Source of the DNA: Pseudomonas sp. KBW05
GTDB taxonomy: Bacteria > Pseudomonadota > Gammaproteobacteria > Pseudomonadales > Pseudomonadaceae
NCBI RefSeq assembly: GCF_003852405.1
Contig: NZ_QAJM01000009.1
Location: forward strand, 62,001-126,000
Reading direction: 5' to 3'
Length of the DNA: 64,000 nucleotides
Shown here: positions 3,032 through 63,886 of the stretch, piece by piece
Layout of the letters: the number at the start of each line of letters is the position of its first letter
Position numbering within the stretch: position 1 is the first letter of the stretch
Notes under the pieces: generated by a model
Database searches by the model: none
Told to the model about the DNA's origin: nothing
What the model saw: the letters and a program-made list of their open reading frames with translations, nothing else
Translations under genes and position numbers: made by a program

Positions 3032-5194
3032 TCAATCATTGATGGTTATTTTTTTGATGACGTTCAGCAGGTGGAACGGCAAAGGCTGGTCCTGCATGAT
3101 TTCCAGTGACGCCTCGCCACGCTCCCACCCAAGGTTCTCCAGGCGCTTGACGCCGATGAAGCTCTCGGGGGGCTGGTCAAGCACGTTCTCTCCGAGATTT
3201 CGAAAGCTGATGGTCTGGGTGATGCCCTTGCCTTTCACCTTGCATCCGATGGTGTCGAGGAAACGCAGGGTGATTTCGCCAATTCGCATGCTGTTGCCTT
3301 GCGCGCTGCCGGTGTTGCCTGCGGCCTCGGGCGTCAGCGTCTTGATCAGCGTCTTGAAGTTCAGGCCGATTGAGGTGGTGAACGCCTTTCGCTCAATCGT
3401 GACCTGGCCGCCTGTGACGAGCTGCTGCTGCATTACAACGCCGTCGGCGACGATATCCACCATCTTGCCTTCCAAGTGCGCCAGGCCGCCCCACACGGTG
3501 GCCCCGCCAACGCTTGTGGCGTTCACGCCGGAATCAACGCGAACACCAGAGGTGAACCGCTCGATGTAGCGAAGGTTTTGCCCGTTGATGTTGCGACGGA
3601 CCACCACCCACACCTGATCACCGGTCTCGGTGGGAATGGACGCGGCCGACTCGTAAGCACCGTCGGTGATCTGCCTGGCCCAGCCAATAACGTCTTGGTC
3701 ACGGTCCACGGTCATGGTGGCCAGCACGCCGTCGGCCCGGACCATGTACAGGATGGATTCCGGCTCTTGCTGATAGGCCATATCAACGATGCCAGACTTG
3801 GTTGCATGCTCCGACAGCACGGACATATCGGGAGAGCCGAACGTGTCGGAGTCGTACTTGTAGGCCATGGCGCGCAGCTTGCGGCCGGCGCGCTGGATGA
3901 AATACAGCTCATTGCCGATCCGAACCGGGCGGACCTTGTTGCAGCCGTACACGGATGGGTTCTTGGCGCGGATGTTGGTCGGGGTAATGGCCTTCTCAAC
4001 ACCGCCGCTCACGGTGAACTCGCCGCCGTAGGTCAGCGGGATCAGGGCGTTGATCTGGCCGATGTGCAGGATTGGATTGATCTGGTCCGACGACAGGTTG
4101 TAGGAGATTGCATCGTCGTCCTTGGTGCCCAACTCGAAGTTCAGGTACTCGCCTGTGCGCGATTCCCAAATGGTCTGCGGGAAGTTTGGCGAACCGCCCA
4201 GGGCAAGGCGTTGTTCGTACAGCGTGCCCGCGCCAGGGTAGCCGTCGATGTCATTCCATACCGAAGCCTCAAGCGACCAGGCGTTGGCCGGGGATGCGAC
4301 GGCCGATGTCGGCGCCGACCGGATGATGCCCGACACCACCGTGGAACTGGTGAACGTGATGATTTCCAACAGCCCGCCGTTGATCTTGACGAACTTGCCG
4401 ATGTCATTGGCGCGCCAGCCTGCAACACCGAGGGTCATGCTCACAGAGCCGCCAACGGGCGTTGCTGCGCTCAGGGTGTTGGTGGTTTGCGGCGAGCCCT
4501 TGAGCGACCAGGTTGGGCGCGTGGTGGCGCTGAATGCATTGGTAACTTCAACGGTGGCCACCGTGGCGCTGGTTACTGCTGTGACCTTTGCCACGCCGCC
4601 GCCCGCCCAGATTTCGCGGCCAACATCGGCAGCCAGGAAAGCAGATTCAGCAGCAGTAACGGTTCGACCGGTGCCCACGGTTGGATCGCTGATAGTGAAC
4701 AGGGTCAGGAAGTCGATACCCTTTTCATCGAACGGCTTGGTCACAAACGGCGCCGGGGCCAGGGTCCACTCGGTATTGGTGATACGGCGCAGGCGCCCCA
4801 CTGGCACCTTGTTGTGGAAGATGAACATGGTGTCGGCGCCCTGCACGTAATCCATTCGGTCAAGGATGTCGTGGGCGTATGGGCTGACCAGTTCAATCCC
4901 GCTGTATGCGCCGGTAGGAAGGTGGATCCTGACGTACAGGTCGCCAAACTCAATCATGAACGCCTGGGAGGCGTTGAACACGTAAGGGATAAGGCGGCAG
5001 TTCTTGTCCGGGAACTTGGCCGGCGAACACATCAGCGTGCCGTCACGGCGAACACATCCGCCATGGATCACCGGCCAGGCGTTCTGGATGATCTCGGCGC
5101 CGTTCTGGTAGCGGGCGATATCGACGCGACCGAGCATGCGCGGGGAGACCTCCCCCGCGGTGAAGTTGGTTTGGTTCAGCGTCAGGCGAGGCAT
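3032..5194 (-). CDS. Tail tubular/nozzle protein, gp12-like
   Basis: A 720-residue protein beginning MPRLTLNQTNFTAGEVSPRM, an opening typical of podovirus nozzle proteins (T7 gp12/tail tubular B and stabilisation proteins). The body is beta-rich with many Gly, Thr and Val. It would form the lower part of the short tail below the gp11-like ring. The start overlaps the stop of the gp11-like gene, so the two are translationally coupled. Length and position fit the family. Confidence 0.85.
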   Translation of the reverse strand: MPRLTLNQTNFTAGEVSPRMLGRVDIARYQNGAEIIQNAWPVIHGGCVRRDGTLMCSPAKFPDKNCRLIPYVFNASQAFMIEFGDLYVRIHLPTGAYSGIELVSPYAHDILDRMDYVQGADTMFIFHNKVPVGRLRRITNTEWTLAPAPFVTKPFDEKGIDFLTLFTISDPTVGTGRTVTAAESAFLAADVGREIWAGGGVAKVTAVTSATVATVEVTNAFSATTRPTWSLKGSPQTTNTLSAATPVGGSVSMTLGVAGWRANDIGKFVKINGGLLEIITFTSSTVVSGIIRSAPTSAVASPANAWSLEASVWNDIDGYPGAGTLYEQRLALGGSPNFPQTIWESRTGEYLNFELGTKDDDAISYNLSSDQINPILHIGQINALIPLTYGGEFTVSGGVEKAITPTNIRAKNPSVYGCNKVRPVRIGNELYFIQRAGRKLRAMAYKYDSDTFGSPDMSVLSEHATKSGIVDMAYQQEPESILYMVRADGVLATMTVDRDQDVIGWARQITDGAYESAASIPTETGDQVWVVVRRNINGQNLRYIERFTSGVRVDSGVNATSVGGATVWGGLAHLEGKMVDIVADGVVMQQQLVTGGQVTIERKAFTTSIGLNFKTLIKTLTPEAAGNTGSAQGNSMRIGEITLRFLDTIGCKVKGKGITQTISFRNLGENVLDQPPESFIGVKRLENLGWERGEASLEIMQDQPLPFHLLNVIKKITIND

Positions 5195-14925: not shown

Positions 14926-15488
14926 TGCCCGCCACCCTTCGACCCTTCTGGATCGGCGCTTTGAGACGTTTTTGAGGTCGATTGCCCGCCACGGTCTCCC
15001 TGGCCCAGGGCGGCGCCAACCTGTCCGGATCGAGTCTCTGGAAGATCAGCCTGAGCCGTGATGCGCATGTTCGGGCACGGAAGCCCACCCATGCCGTAGT
15101 GGATCTCGCCGCATAAAAGGCACTTGGATGGACCGGTAAGAGGAGCCCTAGGGGGCGCATAGCGGTTGCCTGTACCACGGCGAAGTGCTTCAACCTCAGC
15201 CTTCAGCTCAGCATTCACCCGCTCGTAGGCTTCGTAGCCGGTGCGTAGGCCTGCGATTTCTGCCTTGAGCTCAGCAATAACTGCTGATTTGGTATCGCGA
15301 GTGGCTTCTGCGTCGCGCTTACCACGCCACAGGTCTGCTCGTTCGCTCTCAAGCCGCTCGTTCTCGGCGATCAGGGCCAGGACTGCGGCAGGCTCGACCA
15401 GCATCACGCGCTTCGACTCAATCGGGTCGGCGATATCTTTTTGAGCGTGCGCCTCGGCCAGCCGCTTCAGTTCGGTGTTGTCGGTCAT
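14922..15488 (-). CDS. Coiled-coil phage protein with Cys motif
   Basis: A 188-residue protein. Residues about 38-105 form a charged coiled coil (LIAENERLESERADLWRG and following). A possible metal-binding Cys/His set follows (CLLCGEIHYGMGGLPC, about 123-138), and the C-terminus is Gly/Ser/Gln-rich. It overlaps the P gene and NinB. Proteins of this form are common accessory genes near replication genes of Pseudomonas phages; function unknown. Confidence 0.65.
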   Translation of the reverse strand: MTDNTELKRLAEAHAQKDIADPIESKRVMLVEPAAVLALIAENERLESERADLWRGKRDAEATRDTKSAVIAELKAEIAGLRTGYEAYERVNAELKAEVEALRRGTGNRYAPPRAPLTGPSKCLLCGEIHYGMGGLPCPNMRITAQADLPETRSGQVGAALGQGDRGGQSTSKTSQSADPEGSKGGGQ

Positions 15489-16198
15489 GTCCGTTGCTCC
15501 GTGGGTTTCTTGCCGAACTTCGCCAGCAGCAGTGCGCGGGCTGACTTGCCGTCGGCCGGGATGCCCTGCTGAAGGATTCGGTCTTGGGTTTGCTGGTCGG
15601 CCAGCTCGTTGGCGAGTTCGAATTCGGACTTCTGGCTGTCGTGACCGATGCCGGTGGCAATCTTCCCGTCGAGTGGCTGGCCCATCTGGGCGCGGCGCAG
15701 GATGATTTCGTAGCTGCGGTCAAAGCGGGCGCGCAGGCCCTTGTCTTCCTGCTTGGCGCTGCGCAGGTCGAAAATGCCCGTGGCTTCGGCGGCGAGCTTT
15801 ACCGCGTCGTGGCTGTACACGCCCATCAGCGCCTCGATCCAAGCGTCAGCCGGAGCAGGCATGCCGAAGTCTTCCGGGCCGGGGATGCACATGGCGATGA
15901 ACTCACCCACGCTCGGGGCGAAGGGCTTCTTGAGCTTGCGGCTCTTCTGGATGCCGAACTCGATCTGCTCCAGGGAGCGAATACCGGCGTCGGCGAATTC
16001 CTTGATCCACTCGGCCTTGGCGGCGTCGAGCGCTTCGGTGGATGGCCAGGCCTGGCGCCATGCTGGGAAGATCCCGCGCAGTCGGCGGAAAAGCTCGTTG
16101 ACCACTTCGGCGGTCTGCGGCGTGACCTGAATCGGTTCCGACTGGATGGCTGGCGGCAGGTTGCCGAGGGTCGCCATCAGCTCGCTGGCTCGTTTCAT
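15485..16198 (-). CDS. Replication protein P-like (helicase loader)
   Basis: A 237-residue protein similar in form to lambda P. It has VVNELFRRLRGIFPAWRQAW at about residues 32-51, then WIKEFADAGIRSLEQIEFG and KPFAPSVGEFIAMC. P proteins bring the host DnaB helicase to the origin bound by O. Directly downstream of the O-like gene, with a 4-base overlap, as expected for an O-P pair. Confidence 0.85.
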   Translation of the reverse strand: MKRASELMATLGNLPPAIQSEPIQVTPQTAEVVNELFRRLRGIFPAWRQAWPSTEALDAAKAEWIKEFADAGIRSLEQIEFGIQKSRKLKKPFAPSVGEFIAMCIPGPEDFGMPAPADAWIEALMGVYSHDAVKLAAEATGIFDLRSAKQEDKGLRARFDRSYEIILRRAQMGQPLDGKIATGIGHDSQKSEFELANELADQQTQDRILQQGIPADGKSARALLLAKFGKKPTEQRT

Positions 16199-16980
16199 GG
16201 GTTCACCAACAGGCCGTTGGCCCAGGCCGTGCTGTCGAAGTCCGGTTCGTTACCGTTTCGGCGCGGCGGGAGCTGGTGGACGTTGTTGACCTTGTCCGGA
16301 AATATCCCCGTCCAGCCGTTGGAAATCGAGGTGGCAAGGACTTGGTCCGGGTCTGCGTGCCCCTCCAGCGCCTTGGCCTGCTGTTCGCAGCTTTTGGCGG
16401 TCAGGGGCTTGTGGATTTCGCGGCGGTGCTGGCACCAGTCGGCCCAGGTCTTTTCGGTGACGTTGGCGGGCTTGACGGTGAGCGGGTCGAACTTTCGAGA
16501 CTTCTCCGGCGCGGGAGCGGGAGCGACAGGCTTTTGATCTTGTATGTTCTCTTCTCTTCTCTTCTCTTCTTTATTCGTTGAGTTTTCGTTCAACGGAATT
16601 TCAACGGGCGTTGAACGGGCGTTGCGGGAGGCTTTAGGACGGGACTTTGCGGCGTTCTTGCGAGCCTCTGCGGACGCCCTTCCAGCAGCAATACGTTGTG
16701 CCTGCGTTGCGTGCAATGCTTCAAGATCGCGCTCAATTCGCTCATGCACCCACTCGCCATCACGCTCGTTGAAGAACTCGTTCAACGAGCGTTCAACGTC
16801 CGTCCAGCGGTCGTTGGTTAGGCGTGCGATTCGGGCAAGGCGAGACACCGGGATAGGCTTCCCGGTTTGCCAGTAATTGAATATCAGCAACAGGTACGCG
16901 CCATGTTCCTCGGTGGTGAGGTGCATGGTGTCTGCCAGGTAATCGGCCACGTACAGCTGCATGTATGGGAGTGCGGCCAT
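16195..16980 (-). CDS. O-like replication initiation protein (DUF1376/YdaU type)
   Basis: A 261-residue protein. The N-terminal domain begins MAALPYMQLYVADYLADTMHL and has LTTEEHGAYLLLIFNYWQTG, the DUF1376 signature. A charged linker follows (about 115-145), and a C-terminal part with KTWADWCQHRREIHKPLTAKS. In lambda the origin lies inside gene O; here too the gene contains phased repeats and a polypurine tract. It precedes the P gene by overlap and follows the CII gene. Confidence 0.85.
   Translation of the reverse strand: MAALPYMQLYVADYLADTMHLTTEEHGAYLLLIFNYWQTGKPIPVSRLARIARLTNDRWTDVERSLNEFFNERDGEWVHERIERDLEALHATQAQRIAAGRASAEARKNAAKSRPKASRNARSTPVEIPLNENSTNKEEKRREENIQDQKPVAPAPAPEKSRKFDPLTVKPANVTEKTWADWCQHRREIHKPLTAKSCEQQAKALEGHADPDQVLATSISNGWTGIFPDKVNNVHQLPPRRNGNEPDFDSTAWANGLLVNP
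16547..16571 (-). repeat. Polypurine (GAGAA)n tract beside iterons
   Basis: The plus strand shows TTCTC four times in tandem followed by TTCTT, with one strand all purine. It encodes the charged linker of the O-like protein. It ends five bases before the first iteron. In lambda an AT-rich, strand-biased stretch lies next to the iterons and is where the duplex opens. Confidence 0.7.
16576..16630. other. Iteron cluster A, candidate phage replication origin
   Basis: Units related to CGTTSAACG begin at 16576, 16587, 16598, 16609 and 16620, exactly 11 bp apart. The best copies are CGTTCAACG at 16587 and CGTTGAACG at 16609; the outer units are partial. Eleven is not a multiple of three, so the phasing is not a codon effect. 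This would put one protein per helical turn on the same DNA face. Confidence 0.65.
16767..16822. other. Iteron cluster B, second group of phased repeats
   Basis: CGTTCAACG occurs at 16779 and 16790, with related units at 16767 (CGTTGAAGA), 16801 (CGTCCAGCG) and 16812 (CGTTGGTTA). Spacing is 12, 11, 11 and 11 bp. It lies about 140 bp from cluster A in the same gene and uses the same motif, so both probably bind the same protein. Confidence 0.55.
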
Positions 16981-16982
16981 GG

Positions 16983-17291
16983 TTATTCCTCCTGCAACTG
17001 ATCAACGCTCTGGATCAGCTCCATGTACCGCCTGGCCTGATGCAGAAGGGTTTCAATGTCCCGCTTGTCGAAGCACTGCATAGCCTTCGGCACAACCTTC
17101 AAATCCAGCACGGCCAGGATCTGGCAGAACTGTTCGAACTTCTCGGGCTTCATGCGGCTTATGGTCGCTTCATCGCAACCCACTGCAAACGCGACAGGTG
17201 CATTGCCGACAGACGCAAGCTGCTGCATGAGAACGCTGTAGTTCTTGCGGGCCCTTACGGTCTGCTCTTGGCTTAATGGGCTCGTGGACAT
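16983..17291 (-). CDS. cII: CII-family transcription regulator
   Basis: A 102-residue protein from the ATG at 17291; an in-frame TTG six bases upstream is less likely. It shows the CII pattern ARKNYSVLMQQLASVG, then a helix-turn-helix with AVGCDEATISRMKPEKFEQF, then LKVVPKAMQCFDK. CII activates the lysogeny promoters of lambdoid phages. It is second in the leftward operon, after Cro, and before the O-like gene. Confidence 0.9.
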   Translation of the reverse strand: MSTSPLSQEQTVRARKNYSVLMQQLASVGNAPVAFAVGCDEATISRMKPEKFEQFCQILAVLDLKVVPKAMQCFDKRDIETLLHQARRYMELIQSVDQLQEE

Positions 17292-17293
17292 GG

Positions 17294-17467
17294 TCAAGCC
17301 GCCTTCTGATCAGCCTTCAGCTTGTTCTTGCTGATGACCTGGATCTGAAATTGGCGGACAGGCGGGATGTCGATCCCCCACTGCGTAACAGCGCTGGGGC
17401 GAATCCCCAAGGCATCGGCAAGCTTCTTTTTGGAGCCGAAATGCTTGATGGCGTCATTGATGTTCAT
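17294..17467 (-). CDS. cro: Cro-like repressor
   Basis: A 57-residue protein reading MNINDAIKHFGSKKKLADAL from the ATG at 17467, with GAGGA seven bases upstream. The helix-turn-helix KKKLADALGIRPSAVTQWG (about residues 13-31) is typical of Cro/YdaS-type proteins that bind the same operators as CI. It is the first gene of the leftward operon, divergent from the repressor, and ends just before the CII start. Confidence 0.92.
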   Translation of the reverse strand: MNINDAIKHFGSKKKLADALGIRPSAVTQWGIDIPPVRQFQIQVISKNKLKADQKAA

Positions 17468-17494
17468 TGCGAATCCTCGCTTGGTAATGCGCAG

Positions 17495-17523
17495 ATTTAA
17501 GCACCCTTAAAACATGCGCGCAA
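17495..17523 (-). promoter_or_regulatory. Candidate pR promoter for cro
   Basis: On the minus strand TTGCGC is followed by 17 bp and then TGC-TTAAAT, an extended -10. It is about 28 bases upstream of the cro start. A CI-type operator covers its -10. The match to consensus is moderate. Confidence 0.55.
17497..17510. promoter_or_regulatory. CI/Cro operator, OR site next to cro
   Basis: TTAAG-CACC-CTTAA, a perfect inverted repeat with a 4-bp centre. The same motif recurs at 17553 and in the left operator region. It overlaps the -10 of the cro promoter. Confidence 0.75.
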
Positions 17524-17552
17524 CAAGGCAGCGAGATTTTCACCCACTTAAA

Positions 17553-17566
17553 TTAAGCTGACTTAA
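17553..17566. promoter_or_regulatory. CI/Cro operator, OR site next to the repressor gene
   Basis: TTAAG-CTGA-CTTAA, a perfect inverted repeat with a 4-bp centre, ending ten bases before the repressor ATG. A further CTTAA half site lies just upstream (17547-17551). A -10-like TTAACAT overlaps it, so the repressor mRNA may start at or near its ATG. Confidence 0.75.
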
Positions 17567-17575
17567 CATACGACG

Positions 17576-18247
17576 ATGAATAGAAACGAACGCATCGCCC
17601 GCGCCATACAGGTCAGCGGGAAATCAAAGAGCGAAATAGCCAAACTTTGCGACGTTGCACCTTCGGCGGTCACTCAGTGGATCAATGGGGATAGCAAGGC
17701 GCTGAAGGCTGAGAGCGTTTTTGCTTTGGCGAAAGCGACCGGATTCACAGCTGAGTGGCTTACCTTTGGTACCGGGCCCGAAAAAATCGATAGCGAGGAG
17801 CTGGGCACGCCAAGCGAGAAGGACTACGCATTGATACCTCAATACAGTGCTCACGGATCGTCGGGCGATGGATACCTTAACGATCATGTCGAGGTGACCG
17901 GTGGGCTGGCGTTCAAACGAGACTGGTTGAAGCGTATGTCCATGCGCGAAGAAAACCTGCGAGTGCTCTACAACGAAGGGGATAGCAACTGGCCAACACT
18001 TAGCGATGGCGAAGTGCTGCTTGTGGATGTTTCGCGCACCGACCCCACTAACGGCAATATGTACGCGATCCTTAACCAAGATCATGAGTTGATCATCAAG
18101 CGGCTGATTCGCGACCTTGCTGGCGGGTGGATCATTCGATCAGACAACCAGGACAAGGCGAGGTATCCAGACATGCCAATCAGCGACGAAGGAATGCGCG
18201 GGGTTGAGGTCGTGGGGCGCGTAGTCTGGCGAGGCGGCGGAATATAG
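17576..18247 (+). CDS. cI: CI-type repressor, XRE HTH plus S24 peptidase domain
   Basis: A 223-residue protein. The N-terminal HTH (about residues 15-42, KSEIAKLCDVAPSAVTQW) binds operators. The C-terminal LexA/CI peptidase domain has Ser137 in EGDSNWPTL and Lys175 in LIIKRL, the catalytic pair for RecA-stimulated self-cleavage. A classical Ala-Gly cleavage site is not obvious. No SD precedes the ATG, and a -10-like sequence ends about seven bases upstream, suggesting leaderless translation as for lambda cI. Divergent from cro, with operators between. Confidence 0.95.
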   Translation: MNRNERIARAIQVSGKSKSEIAKLCDVAPSAVTQWINGDSKALKAESVFALAKATGFTAEWLTFGTGPEKIDSEELGTPSEKDYALIPQYSAHGSSGDGYLNDHVEVTGGLAFKRDWLKRMSMREENLRVLYNEGDSNWPTLSDGEVLLVDVSRTDPTNGNMYAILNQDHELIIKRLIRDLAGGWIIRSDNQDKARYPDMPISDEGMRGVEVVGRVVWRGGGI

Positions 18248-21890: not shown

Positions 21891-22652
21891 ATGTCCACCG
21901 ACATCATCATGCCGGAAGAACGGCACCAATCAGTCGCACTCCACCAGCAAGGGCAAGAAATCAGCATGCTATCGACGATCAGTCGGCTTGCTCTCGACCC
22001 TCGCTGCGACATGGATAAGCTGGAGCGCCTGATCGCGCTTCAAGACCGCATGGAAGCCAAAAGCGCACTTGAGGCCTTCAACGCTTCGTTCGCCGAAATG
22101 CAATGCGAAATGCCTTCGGTAGAGAAGCGAACCGAAAACACGCACACCAAGAAGATGTACGCCGACTTGGACGACATCAACTTCGCGGTGCGCCCGGTCA
22201 TGGCCAAGTTTGGTTTTGGCGTGTCGTTCAAGATCATCAATCAGGCCGCCGGAGTCAGCATTACCGGAATCCTGATGCACAAGGCTGGTCACCGCGAAGA
22301 AACGACCATGATCCTCCCGCTTGATACCGGCGCCGGTCGTAGCGCTGTTCAATCGGTAGGCTCAACCACCACATACGGCAAGCGCTACGTCATGTGCGCC
22401 CTGCTGAACATCACCAGCGGCGACGACAACGACAACGATGGCTATGTAGAGGCCACTGATCAGCTGGTAACTCCCGCCCAGGCGCGGCAGGTGCAAGCCC
22501 TTCTGGATAAATGCAGCGAGGCTGTCCACGCCAACTTCGAAAAGAAGTACGGCGACCCGGGCCAGATTGCGAAGTCAGCGTTTGACGGCGTAGTGGCCGG
22601 CCTCAACAACTCAATCTCAAAGGCCGCCAAGGCGGCGCAGCAGGGGAATTGA
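21891..22652 (+). CDS. erf: ERF-family single-strand annealing protein
   Basis: A 253-residue protein of ERF type. Key segments are FNASFAEMQCEMPSVEKR, then KKMYADLDDINFAVRPVMAKFGF, and GSTTTYGKRYVMCALLNI at about residues 156-173. ERF proteins bind ssDNA and anneal complementary strands in phage recombination. Ten bases separate it from the coiled-coil gene, and a nuclease gene follows, making a two-component exonuclease/annealase system. Confidence 0.92.
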   Translation: MSTDIIMPEERHQSVALHQQGQEISMLSTISRLALDPRCDMDKLERLIALQDRMEAKSALEAFNASFAEMQCEMPSVEKRTENTHTKKMYADLDDINFAVRPVMAKFGFGVSFKIINQAAGVSITGILMHKAGHREETTMILPLDTGAGRSAVQSVGSTTTYGKRYVMCALLNITSGDDNDNDGYVEATDQLVTPAQARQVQALLDKCSEAVHANFEKKYGDPGQIAKSAFDGVVAGLNNSISKAAKAAQQGN

Positions 22653-22654
22653 AC

Positions 22655-23278
22655 ATGGCCATGCAAATCATCACAGAGGTCGAGCAGGGTTCGCCGGAAT
22701 GGCTGGCCCTGCGCCTAGGTATCGTCACTTGCTCCGAGCTGGAATGCCTGCTTACCAACGGTAAGGGCGAAGCCGGGTTTGGTGTCGGCGCATTCACCTA
22801 CATGCATACCCTGATCGGCGAGCGCATCACAGGCGAGGCTGCCGACCCCTTCACGGGCAACCGACACACCGAGCGCGGCCACGAGCTGGAAGGTGTCGCC
22901 CGCAAGCTGTACGAGCAGCGCGAGGAAGTCGAAACCAACCAGGTGGCAATCATCCTCAACCACGGAGCCGGCTATTCGCCTGACTCGCTGGTGGGGGCCA
23001 AGGGCCTGACGGAAATCAAAACCAAGCTGCCGAAGTTTCAGGTCGAAGTGATCCTTTCGGGCGAGATTCCAAAGGAACACGTCGCCCAGTGCCAGGGTGG
23101 CCTGTGGGTCTCGGAGCGCGAGTGGATCGACTTCGTTTGCTACTGGCCCGGCATGCCGATGTTCGTCAAGCGCGCTTACCGGGACGAAGCGATGATCCGC
23201 AAGATCGCCGAGCGGGTTAAGACCTTCTACGAAATTCTCGACGAGCGCATGAATCAAGTTCTGGGGATCGCAGCATGA
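22655..23278 (+). CDS. YqaJ/lambda-exonuclease-type nuclease
   Basis: About 207 residues from the ATG at 22655; a TTG two codons upstream is in frame. It begins MQIITEVEQGSPEWLALRLG. The motifs GSPEWLALR, YSPDSLVG and LTEIKTKLPK give the RecB-type Asp and E-x-K active site, and QCQGGLWV is typical of YqaJ proteins. It chews one strand from double-strand ends to feed the ERF annealing protein. The stop overlaps the next start. Confidence 0.9.
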   Translation: MAMQIITEVEQGSPEWLALRLGIVTCSELECLLTNGKGEAGFGVGAFTYMHTLIGERITGEAADPFTGNRHTERGHELEGVARKLYEQREEVETNQVAIILNHGAGYSPDSLVGAKGLTEIKTKLPKFQVEVILSGEIPKEHVAQCQGGLWVSEREWIDFVCYWPGMPMFVKRAYRDEAMIRKIAERVKTFYEILDERMNQVLGIAA

Positions 23279-48062: not shown

Positions 48063-48079
48063 CAGTGGAAGGAGGTTAG

Positions 48080-48184
48080 TGTGGGAGCGGGCTTGTGTGG
48101 GAGCGGGCTTGCTCGCGAAGGCGGTGGATCAGTTGAAATTCCTGTGACTGACACACCGCATTCGCGAGCAAGCCCGCTCCCACA
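48080..48184. repeat. REP-type palindrome with duplicated left arm
   Basis: The left arm shows TGTGGGAGCGGGCTTG twice in tandem, then the normal centre and right arm. The same tandem duplication is seen at 56099 and 63783. Confidence 0.9.
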
Positions 48185-48212
48185 CAAGCCCGATCACACA
48201 GGGGGTCTGTGT

Positions 48213-63782: not shown

Positions 63783-63886
63783 TGTGGGAGCGGGCTTGTG
63801 TGGGAGCGGGCTTGCTCGCGAAGGCGGTGTGTCAGGCAACTCATCTGTTACTGACCCTCCGCATTCGCGAGCAAGCCCGCTCCCAC
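63783..63886. repeat. REP-type palindrome with duplicated left arm
   Basis: Contains TGTGGGAGCGGGCTTG twice in tandem at its left side, like 48080, and one normal right arm. The remaining bases to the window end (63887-64000) hold no gene I can support. Confidence 0.92.

Follow-up and report, generated by a model that had tools for sequence, protein, structure and literature searches.

The window analyzed here, a 64,000-nucleotide stretch of the Pseudomonas sp. KBW05 genome, contains an O-like initiator gene whose own coding sequence holds two clusters of short repeats on an 11-bp grid (Table 1). This raises a puzzle: Why should a replication gene carry such repeats, and why should it carry them twice? 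We conclude that they very probably mark a lambda-type prophage replication origin inside the initiator gene, in which the DUF1376 domain would bind the repeat units, the array on cluster 2 would open the adjoining tract, the helicase loader would be recruited, and cluster 1 would provide a second array. In the best reading of these data, DUF1376 stands in for the binding domain of lambda O, with units of half the size and a second cluster placed in the codons of the binding domain itself.

Table 1. Positions of the initiator gene, its neighbours and the repeat elements in the window.
Feature	Position	Strand	Description
O-like initiator gene	16195..16980	-	261 aa; N-terminal DUF1376, C-terminal part resembling phage O-type initiators
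DUF1376 domain codons	16723..16968	-	Residues 5-86 (Pfam)
Lambda P-like helicase loader gene	15485..16198	-	Pfam PF06992, E 9.1e-29; PHROG 109, P-like helicase loader
CII-like regulator gene	16983..17297	-	Pfam PF05269; PHROG 725
CI-like repressor gene, divergent	17576..18247	+	Peptidase_S24 and HTH_3 (Pfam); PHROG 4
Cluster 1	16767..16820		Five units, starts 16767, 16779, 16790, 16801, 16812; within DUF1376 domain codons
Cluster 2	16576..16628		Five units, starts 16576, 16587, 16598, 16609, 16620; linker codons
A/T-rich purine tract, putative unwinding element	16531..16575		Adjoins cluster 2; (GAGAA)n in sense

The consensus CGTTSAACG is matched exactly by the units at 16587, 16609, 16779 and 16790, with two mismatches at 16598 and 16801 and three at 16576 and 16620; the unit at 16812 has four mismatches, with its CGTTG core intact. 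A preliminary description of this DNA had correctly placed units on an 11-bp grid in two clusters, and our recount adds the one at 16767 (two mismatches, 12 bp ahead of 16779), giving five units per cluster. The 138-bp gap between the clusters (16629-16766) contains a pair of CGTTG cores with 11-bp spacing (16694 and 16705), which we do not count as units because their stretch shows no synonymous constraint. Read in the sense direction, the gene presents cluster 1, cluster 2 and then the purine tract. The latter, whose (GAGAA)n repeat the same description had placed against the array, does adjoin it: the repeat reads (TTCTC)4.8 on the + strand at 16547-16570, next to unit 16576. At 31% GC, 16531-16575 is the minimum among 45-bp stretches of 15-18 kb, and it is likely the unwinding element. 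The short tandem units at the place of the repeat (16547-16570 in the window) vary between relatives, which show GAGAA, ATACAG, AACCAAT or CCAGAA.

Exact copies of CGTTSAACG number 143 in the 6.52-Mb genome, close to the 130 found for a reversed-pattern control. This genome-wide rate predicts about 0.017 copies in the initiator gene, so the four found there are far above chance. To quantify the periodicity, we scored the self-match of the gene at each lag in L010, whose initiator gene is identical in DNA to that of the window. The lag-11 self-match (z 4.7) was reached by none of 300 synonymous-codon shuffles that kept the protein; scores are also high at lag 10 (z 5.1) and lag 15 (z 3.0), which we attribute to the 5-bp purine repeat. 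As a control of the method, the test recovers the iterons known from lambda, at lag 23 (z 5.3). Elsewhere in the window, 16-bp tandem repeats occur in pairs at 48079-48111, 48169-48200 and 63783-63814, with GTGTGGGAGCGGGCTT-type units common to 48079 and 63783.

The initiator matches Pfam PF07120 at residues 5-86 (E 9e-26) with a score of 90.5 bits, against a curated cut-off of 30.1, which places it in the DUF1376 / YdaU family, the type assigned to it earlier. Its PHROGs matches are to a primosomal protein and to O-like replication initiation, and a search for solved-structure homologues gave four matches, none below E 0.066 and none credible. The CII-like gene lies upstream and the P-like gene downstream, and the CI-like repressor gene diverges beyond the CII-like gene. 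A P-like, DnaC-like or DnaB gene follows in 6 of the 10 relatives scanned; the genes downstream of L097 and L102 have no PHROG match, and those downstream of L096 and L101 have weak or other matches at most. In L101, a Rhizobium phage, the gene after the DUF1376 gene (3264-3839) has a DnaA C-terminal DNA-binding domain. Five terminator-like sites were found in 15400-17700, versus a shuffle mean of 3.3. Further along the window, at 21891-23278, a phage recombination pair is encoded by a gene for an Erf-like annealing protein and, after it, one for a YqaJ-type exonuclease.

It is instructive to compare this locus with known origins. The available portion of one report places the repeats of lambda and Stx phage origins in the middle of the initiator gene, as 19-bp inverted repeats with an A/T-rich tract on the P side (PMC7466680). 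The window shares with the lambda origin in gene O the order cII-O-P and the order of repeats, A/T-rich tract and P, and thus has the plan of a lambdoid O/P module: an initiator between cII-like and P-like genes, and an in-gene array with its tract on the P side. The preliminary description had seen the lambda design here, and this holds for gene order and in-gene repeats but not for the repeats themselves. The annotated lambda iterons are 18 bp long at spacings of 20, 24 and 23 bp, about two helical turns, whereas the window has 9-bp near-palindromes at 11 bp, about one turn, and is without the iterons of 18-19 bp at 20-24 bp that define the lambdoid O/P type. In addition, the annotated lambda sites include no second cluster in the binding-domain codons. 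The lambda O domain is PF04492, while the window initiator has PF07120 only and no Phage_rep_O match; hhalign detected no relation between DUF1376 and lambda O (probability 0.1, E 0.49, with a single sequence on the lambda side), and a scan for lambda O homologues returned copies at 99-100% identity and was therefore set aside.

The ydaU gene of the E. coli Rac prophage is alike in its DUF1376 domain, its downstream DnaC-like loader (L008) and its GTTCAA/GTTGAA-type repeats ahead of an A/T-rich tract, but in Rac, and so in K-12 ydaU, the family member known best, the spacing departs from 11 bp, with self-match at lag 23 (z 3.7) and lag 12 (z 2.2). An active origin, oriJ, is reported for Rac in the accessible text of PMC3945230, and the RefSeq record annotates no origin feature in the ydaU stretch. 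The Pseudomonas lambdoid phage MD8 has repeats within the gene for an O-like protein, according to the part of its description available, which mentions neither DUF1376 nor iterons (PMC8508860). The window initiator has no Pfam match to a plasmid Rep initiator domain. In iteron plasmids, the cognate initiator binds phased direct repeats that lie next to an A/T-rich element. The window resembles such plasmids in having repeats of this kind next to such an element, and differs in having 9-bp units at 11 bp inside a gene; plasmid iterons are given as about 20 bp in the section available of PMC2647930.

If the repeats act as DNA sites, they should be conserved at synonymous positions in related prophages, as the preliminary description had proposed, and they are. 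We aligned by codon the window gene and 24 relatives, and computed the expected synonymous change per pair and codon class; these 25 genes were picked by us from 31 near genes after the arrays had been inspected, leaving out L032, L034 and Rac (Rac type), L094, AH02 and PfAn1. In this set, synonymous change falls to 0.42 of expected in cluster 1 (codons 56-72, 16765-16815; permutation p 4.5e-4), 0.27 in cluster 2 (codons 118-136, 16573-16629; p 5e-5) and 0.15 in the tract (codons 137-150; p 5e-5). It stands at 1.17 in codons 1-55 and 1.25 in codons 73-117, and 8-codon windows from codon 149 onward range from 0.77 to 1.48. Thus, among the 25 selected close relatives, the depletion is confined to the two clusters and the tract.

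In 22 aligned genes the cores of cluster 2 stay on the 11-bp grid, mostly as CAACG/GAACG or CGTTG/CGTTC. One unit has the opposite half-site in L025 and L093, with different amino acids, and the cores are fewer in L060 (3), L024 (4) and L033 (5). Lag-11 self-match was reached by at most 3 of 300 shuffles in 22 of the 31 near genes; L094, L032, L034, AH02 and others miss this level. Of 52 distinct variants, 41 have the same distance, 156 nt, between the EFF and NxRST residues despite a variable linker; the exceptions are 123 nt (five variants), 144 nt (three), and 69, 183 and 228 nt (one each). A fixed helical phase between the clusters was considered and dropped, because the exceptional distances are not whole helical turns apart. 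In L030 (731-1411) the inter-cluster stretch is 87 nt shorter (69 versus 156 nt between these anchors) and both clusters are retained, on a 5.4-kb metagenome contig where an assembly fault could account for the short distance.

To evaluate the 11-bp signal more widely, we reduced 417 sequences to 321 distinct DUF1376 genes and these to 73 representatives at 70% domain identity, of which 68 were analyzed (five were dropped for Ns or too little domain), with synonymous shuffles and 39 downstream, non-overlapping genes as controls. Against the shuffles, lag 11 reached p≤0.05 in 38 of the 68 genes and p≤0.01 in 19, compared with 3 and 1 of the 39 downstream genes; among the 22 most divergent genes, which are also distinct at 50%, 12 reached p≤0.05. 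Lag 22 was raised in 20 of 68, and neither lag 11 nor lag 22 was significant in 30. Lag 14 was raised in 15 of 68 and, in an earlier run, lag 7 in 30 of 73, which we attribute to 7-bp AACCAAT-type repeats in many tracts. The motifs vary by lineage (GTTSAAC, ATGCGAACGCA/GCAATGC, AACCC, ATGCAAATGC, GCTCCAAGCA and others), and arrays occur in DUF1376 genes of distant phages with other neighbours, such as those of Leptolyngbya (L098) and Rhizobium (L101).

Plotted by position in the 68 genes, the lag-11 excess forms two peaks, one at domain columns 41-70 (z 4.7, 4.1 and 2.9) and one 7-46 codons past the domain. The first of these is weaker when the 22 most divergent genes are taken alone (z 2.0, 2.3 and 1.5, then 4.1 at columns 71-80). 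The 8-mers common to columns 31-70 and the gene's own cluster 2 cover 672 bases in sum, versus 391 in same-domain shuffles and 258 for the cluster 2 of other genes; sharing is also raised at columns 21-30 (100 versus 57). The two-cluster layout had been called unusual; rather, with a gap of 138 bp in the window, it recurs across the family in aggregate, in two lag-11 peaks and a common motif, and cluster 1 is significant mostly at that aggregate level. A candidate third cluster at columns 16-25 was rejected: its peak arose in a thresholded count, where the null was close to zero, and the plain count lacks it.

Do any relatives keep the protein and lose the repeats? We collected 78 distinct genes whose DUF1376 domain is at least 55% identical to that of the window and asked which of them have one or more exact CAACG/CGTTG cores in the cluster 1 stretch and three or more within the 60 codons that follow the domain. 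Both are present in 51 genes. Of the other 27, 12 are of Rac type and 4 more have a related linker; a further 10 show one or two cores downstream of the domain, and the last is L094. The exact motif is gone from the Rac-type genes, which keep a relaxed, differently spaced one in its place (GTTCAA/GTTGAA). L094, whose DUF1376 domain is 70% identical to that of the window gene over residues 1-100, has lost both clusters; such loss beside a conserved protein had been named as the finding that would count against an origin, and it is seen here in part, but L094 carries an inserted domain at the place of cluster 2. In L094 (2501-3598) and L510 (1501-2598), the place where cluster 2 is expected is taken by a T5orf172/MUG113 domain, with DUF1376 on one side and a weak DnaT match on the other; L510, with the same Pfam profile, shows no lag-11 excess.

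The N-terminal domain itself is exchanged. In a genus-level search, 42 of 399 genomes (the window's own included) matched the initiator, and 33 of the 44 listed places start no earlier than query residue 102 and so match the C-terminal part alone. We examined 29 loci (30 minus the window's own): 4 have a DUF1376 N-terminus, 3 of them with lag-11 excess (z 3.3-5.3), and 25 have other N-terminal sequences. Calling arrays in these 25 at z above 2.5 over 19 lags, we found lag-22 arrays at codons 106-126 in 10, lag 15 in five, lag 16 in two, lags 17 and 21 in three, and none of these kinds in five. Eight of the 10 lag-22 genes pass at lag 11 too; one-turn phasing thus also occurs behind non-DUF1376 domains, and phasing alone does not point to DUF1376. 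L506 joins a different N-terminus to a nearly identical purine tract. L513, L514, L516, L522, L525, L528, L529, L531, L533 and L534 combine a similar C-terminal part and another N-terminal domain with 22-bp linker arrays, many of them of ACGGGGTGCA units.

A similar picture is seen in E. coli, where Rac-SA53 ydaU DNA is matched in 1809 of 5426 genomes. Among the 30 matches listed, the start lies at 435-487 for 16 partial matches and the end at 456 for nine, so that the break points fall at or just past the A/T-rich tract. Three sampled E. coli genes share the DnaT domain and lack DUF1376; by eye, two of the three have repeated GTCACGA ahead of a similar tract, with lag-10 excess at this array in BEN2908 (z 3.3) and not in the second gene. 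The same C-terminal half is thus found behind unrelated N-terminal domains with other arrays, and the junction lies near the A/T-rich tract.

These observations bear on other explanations of the repeats. They could be sites of another phage regulator (CII-like, Cro-like or CI-like) that tunes transcription of the operon: genes of the CII-like and CI-like kinds adjoin, and DNA-level selection by itself leaves the binder unnamed. We give this little probability, because arrays recur in the DUF1376 genes of L098 and L101, where the neighbours differ, because the window array borders an A/T-rich tract and not a promoter (none promoter-like was found in 15400-17700), and because initiators of other types that share the C-terminal half have their own arrays at the same place. 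A constraint on RNA, with the repeats forming mRNA hairpins, would fit the window's clusters, which fold better than shuffles (z -4.08 for cluster 1, -2.90 for cluster 2). The whole region, however, folds like shuffles (z -1.02), relatives' cluster 2 folds variously, and there is no Rfam match; across 23 cluster 1 sequences, paired cells amount to 85.7% versus 85.2% in shuffles and two-sided changes to 5 versus 6.3 cells. Lacking covariation despite good local folds, and leaving the 11-bp grid without a reason, the hairpin was rejected as extremely improbable.

The remaining question concerns cluster 1. Cluster 2 alone might be the origin array, and cluster 1 a by-product of the conserved protein in which it lies: its units are less regular (one 12-bp step, a last unit with four mismatches), its third aligned unit keeps only 6 of 9 matches in L013, L015, L016, L017, L025 and L030, and in tests of single genes p≤0.05 is reached by only 11 of 68 (7-mers shared with the gene's own cluster 2). 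Against this stand the depletion of synonymous change to 0.42 (p 4.5e-4), which protein constraint does not explain, the family-wide lag-11 peak at columns 41-70, if weaker in the 22 most divergent genes, and the 8-mers shared between the cluster 1 region and the gene's own cluster 2. We therefore think it unlikely that cluster 1 is a by-product: the DNA-level selection on it is supported by the data, and its proposed function is that of a second array.

In the origin model that we favor, the course of initiation in the window is most likely that of lambda, from which we infer it by analogy: according to the available parts of two reports, the repeats become coated with initiator, which is followed by opening of the A/T-rich tract and delivery of DnaB by the loader (PMC7466680, PMC8508860). 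Binding of the CGTTSAACG units by the DUF1376 domain would most likely involve a dimer or two half-site contacts, either of which suits a 9-bp near-palindrome. With units 11 bp, or about one turn, apart, the proteins bound to them would be aligned on nearly one face of the DNA, forming a compact array on cluster 2. This array would open the adjoining purine tract, and the C-terminal part of the initiator would recruit the P-like loader together with DnaB of the host. Cluster 1 would serve as a second array for the same protein and may assist or restrain initiation, for example by looping to cluster 2.

DUF1376 is present in 66 phage records (tblastn) and in 29 of 398 genomes sampled from the phylum. 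In the titles, abstract openings and text portions available from the literature matches listed, including PMC11014345, PMC5795418, PMC8044961 and PMC8951638, nothing links DUF1376 or YdaU either to iterons or to an origin, subscription journals lying mostly outside the scope of that search. We tentatively suggest, as a possibility that goes beyond the window, that DUF1376 is a widespread origin-recognition domain whose arrays lie twice in its own gene, beside the unwinding tract and in the binding-domain codons, co-evolving and, in the window's clade, at a fixed spacing; that bridging of the two may be required for initiation or may limit it; and that domain and sites may move between phages as a cassette, as the natural swaps of N-terminal domain and repeats on the same C-terminal half suggest for origin recognition. 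Bridging, if true, would be an arrangement absent from the annotated sites of lambda, and at cluster 1 a single stretch of DNA would be selected as both protein code and binding site. The origin model gives a testable role to a domain of unknown function in phages and prophages of varied hosts, and it predicts where the origin would lie in many DUF1376-bearing elements.
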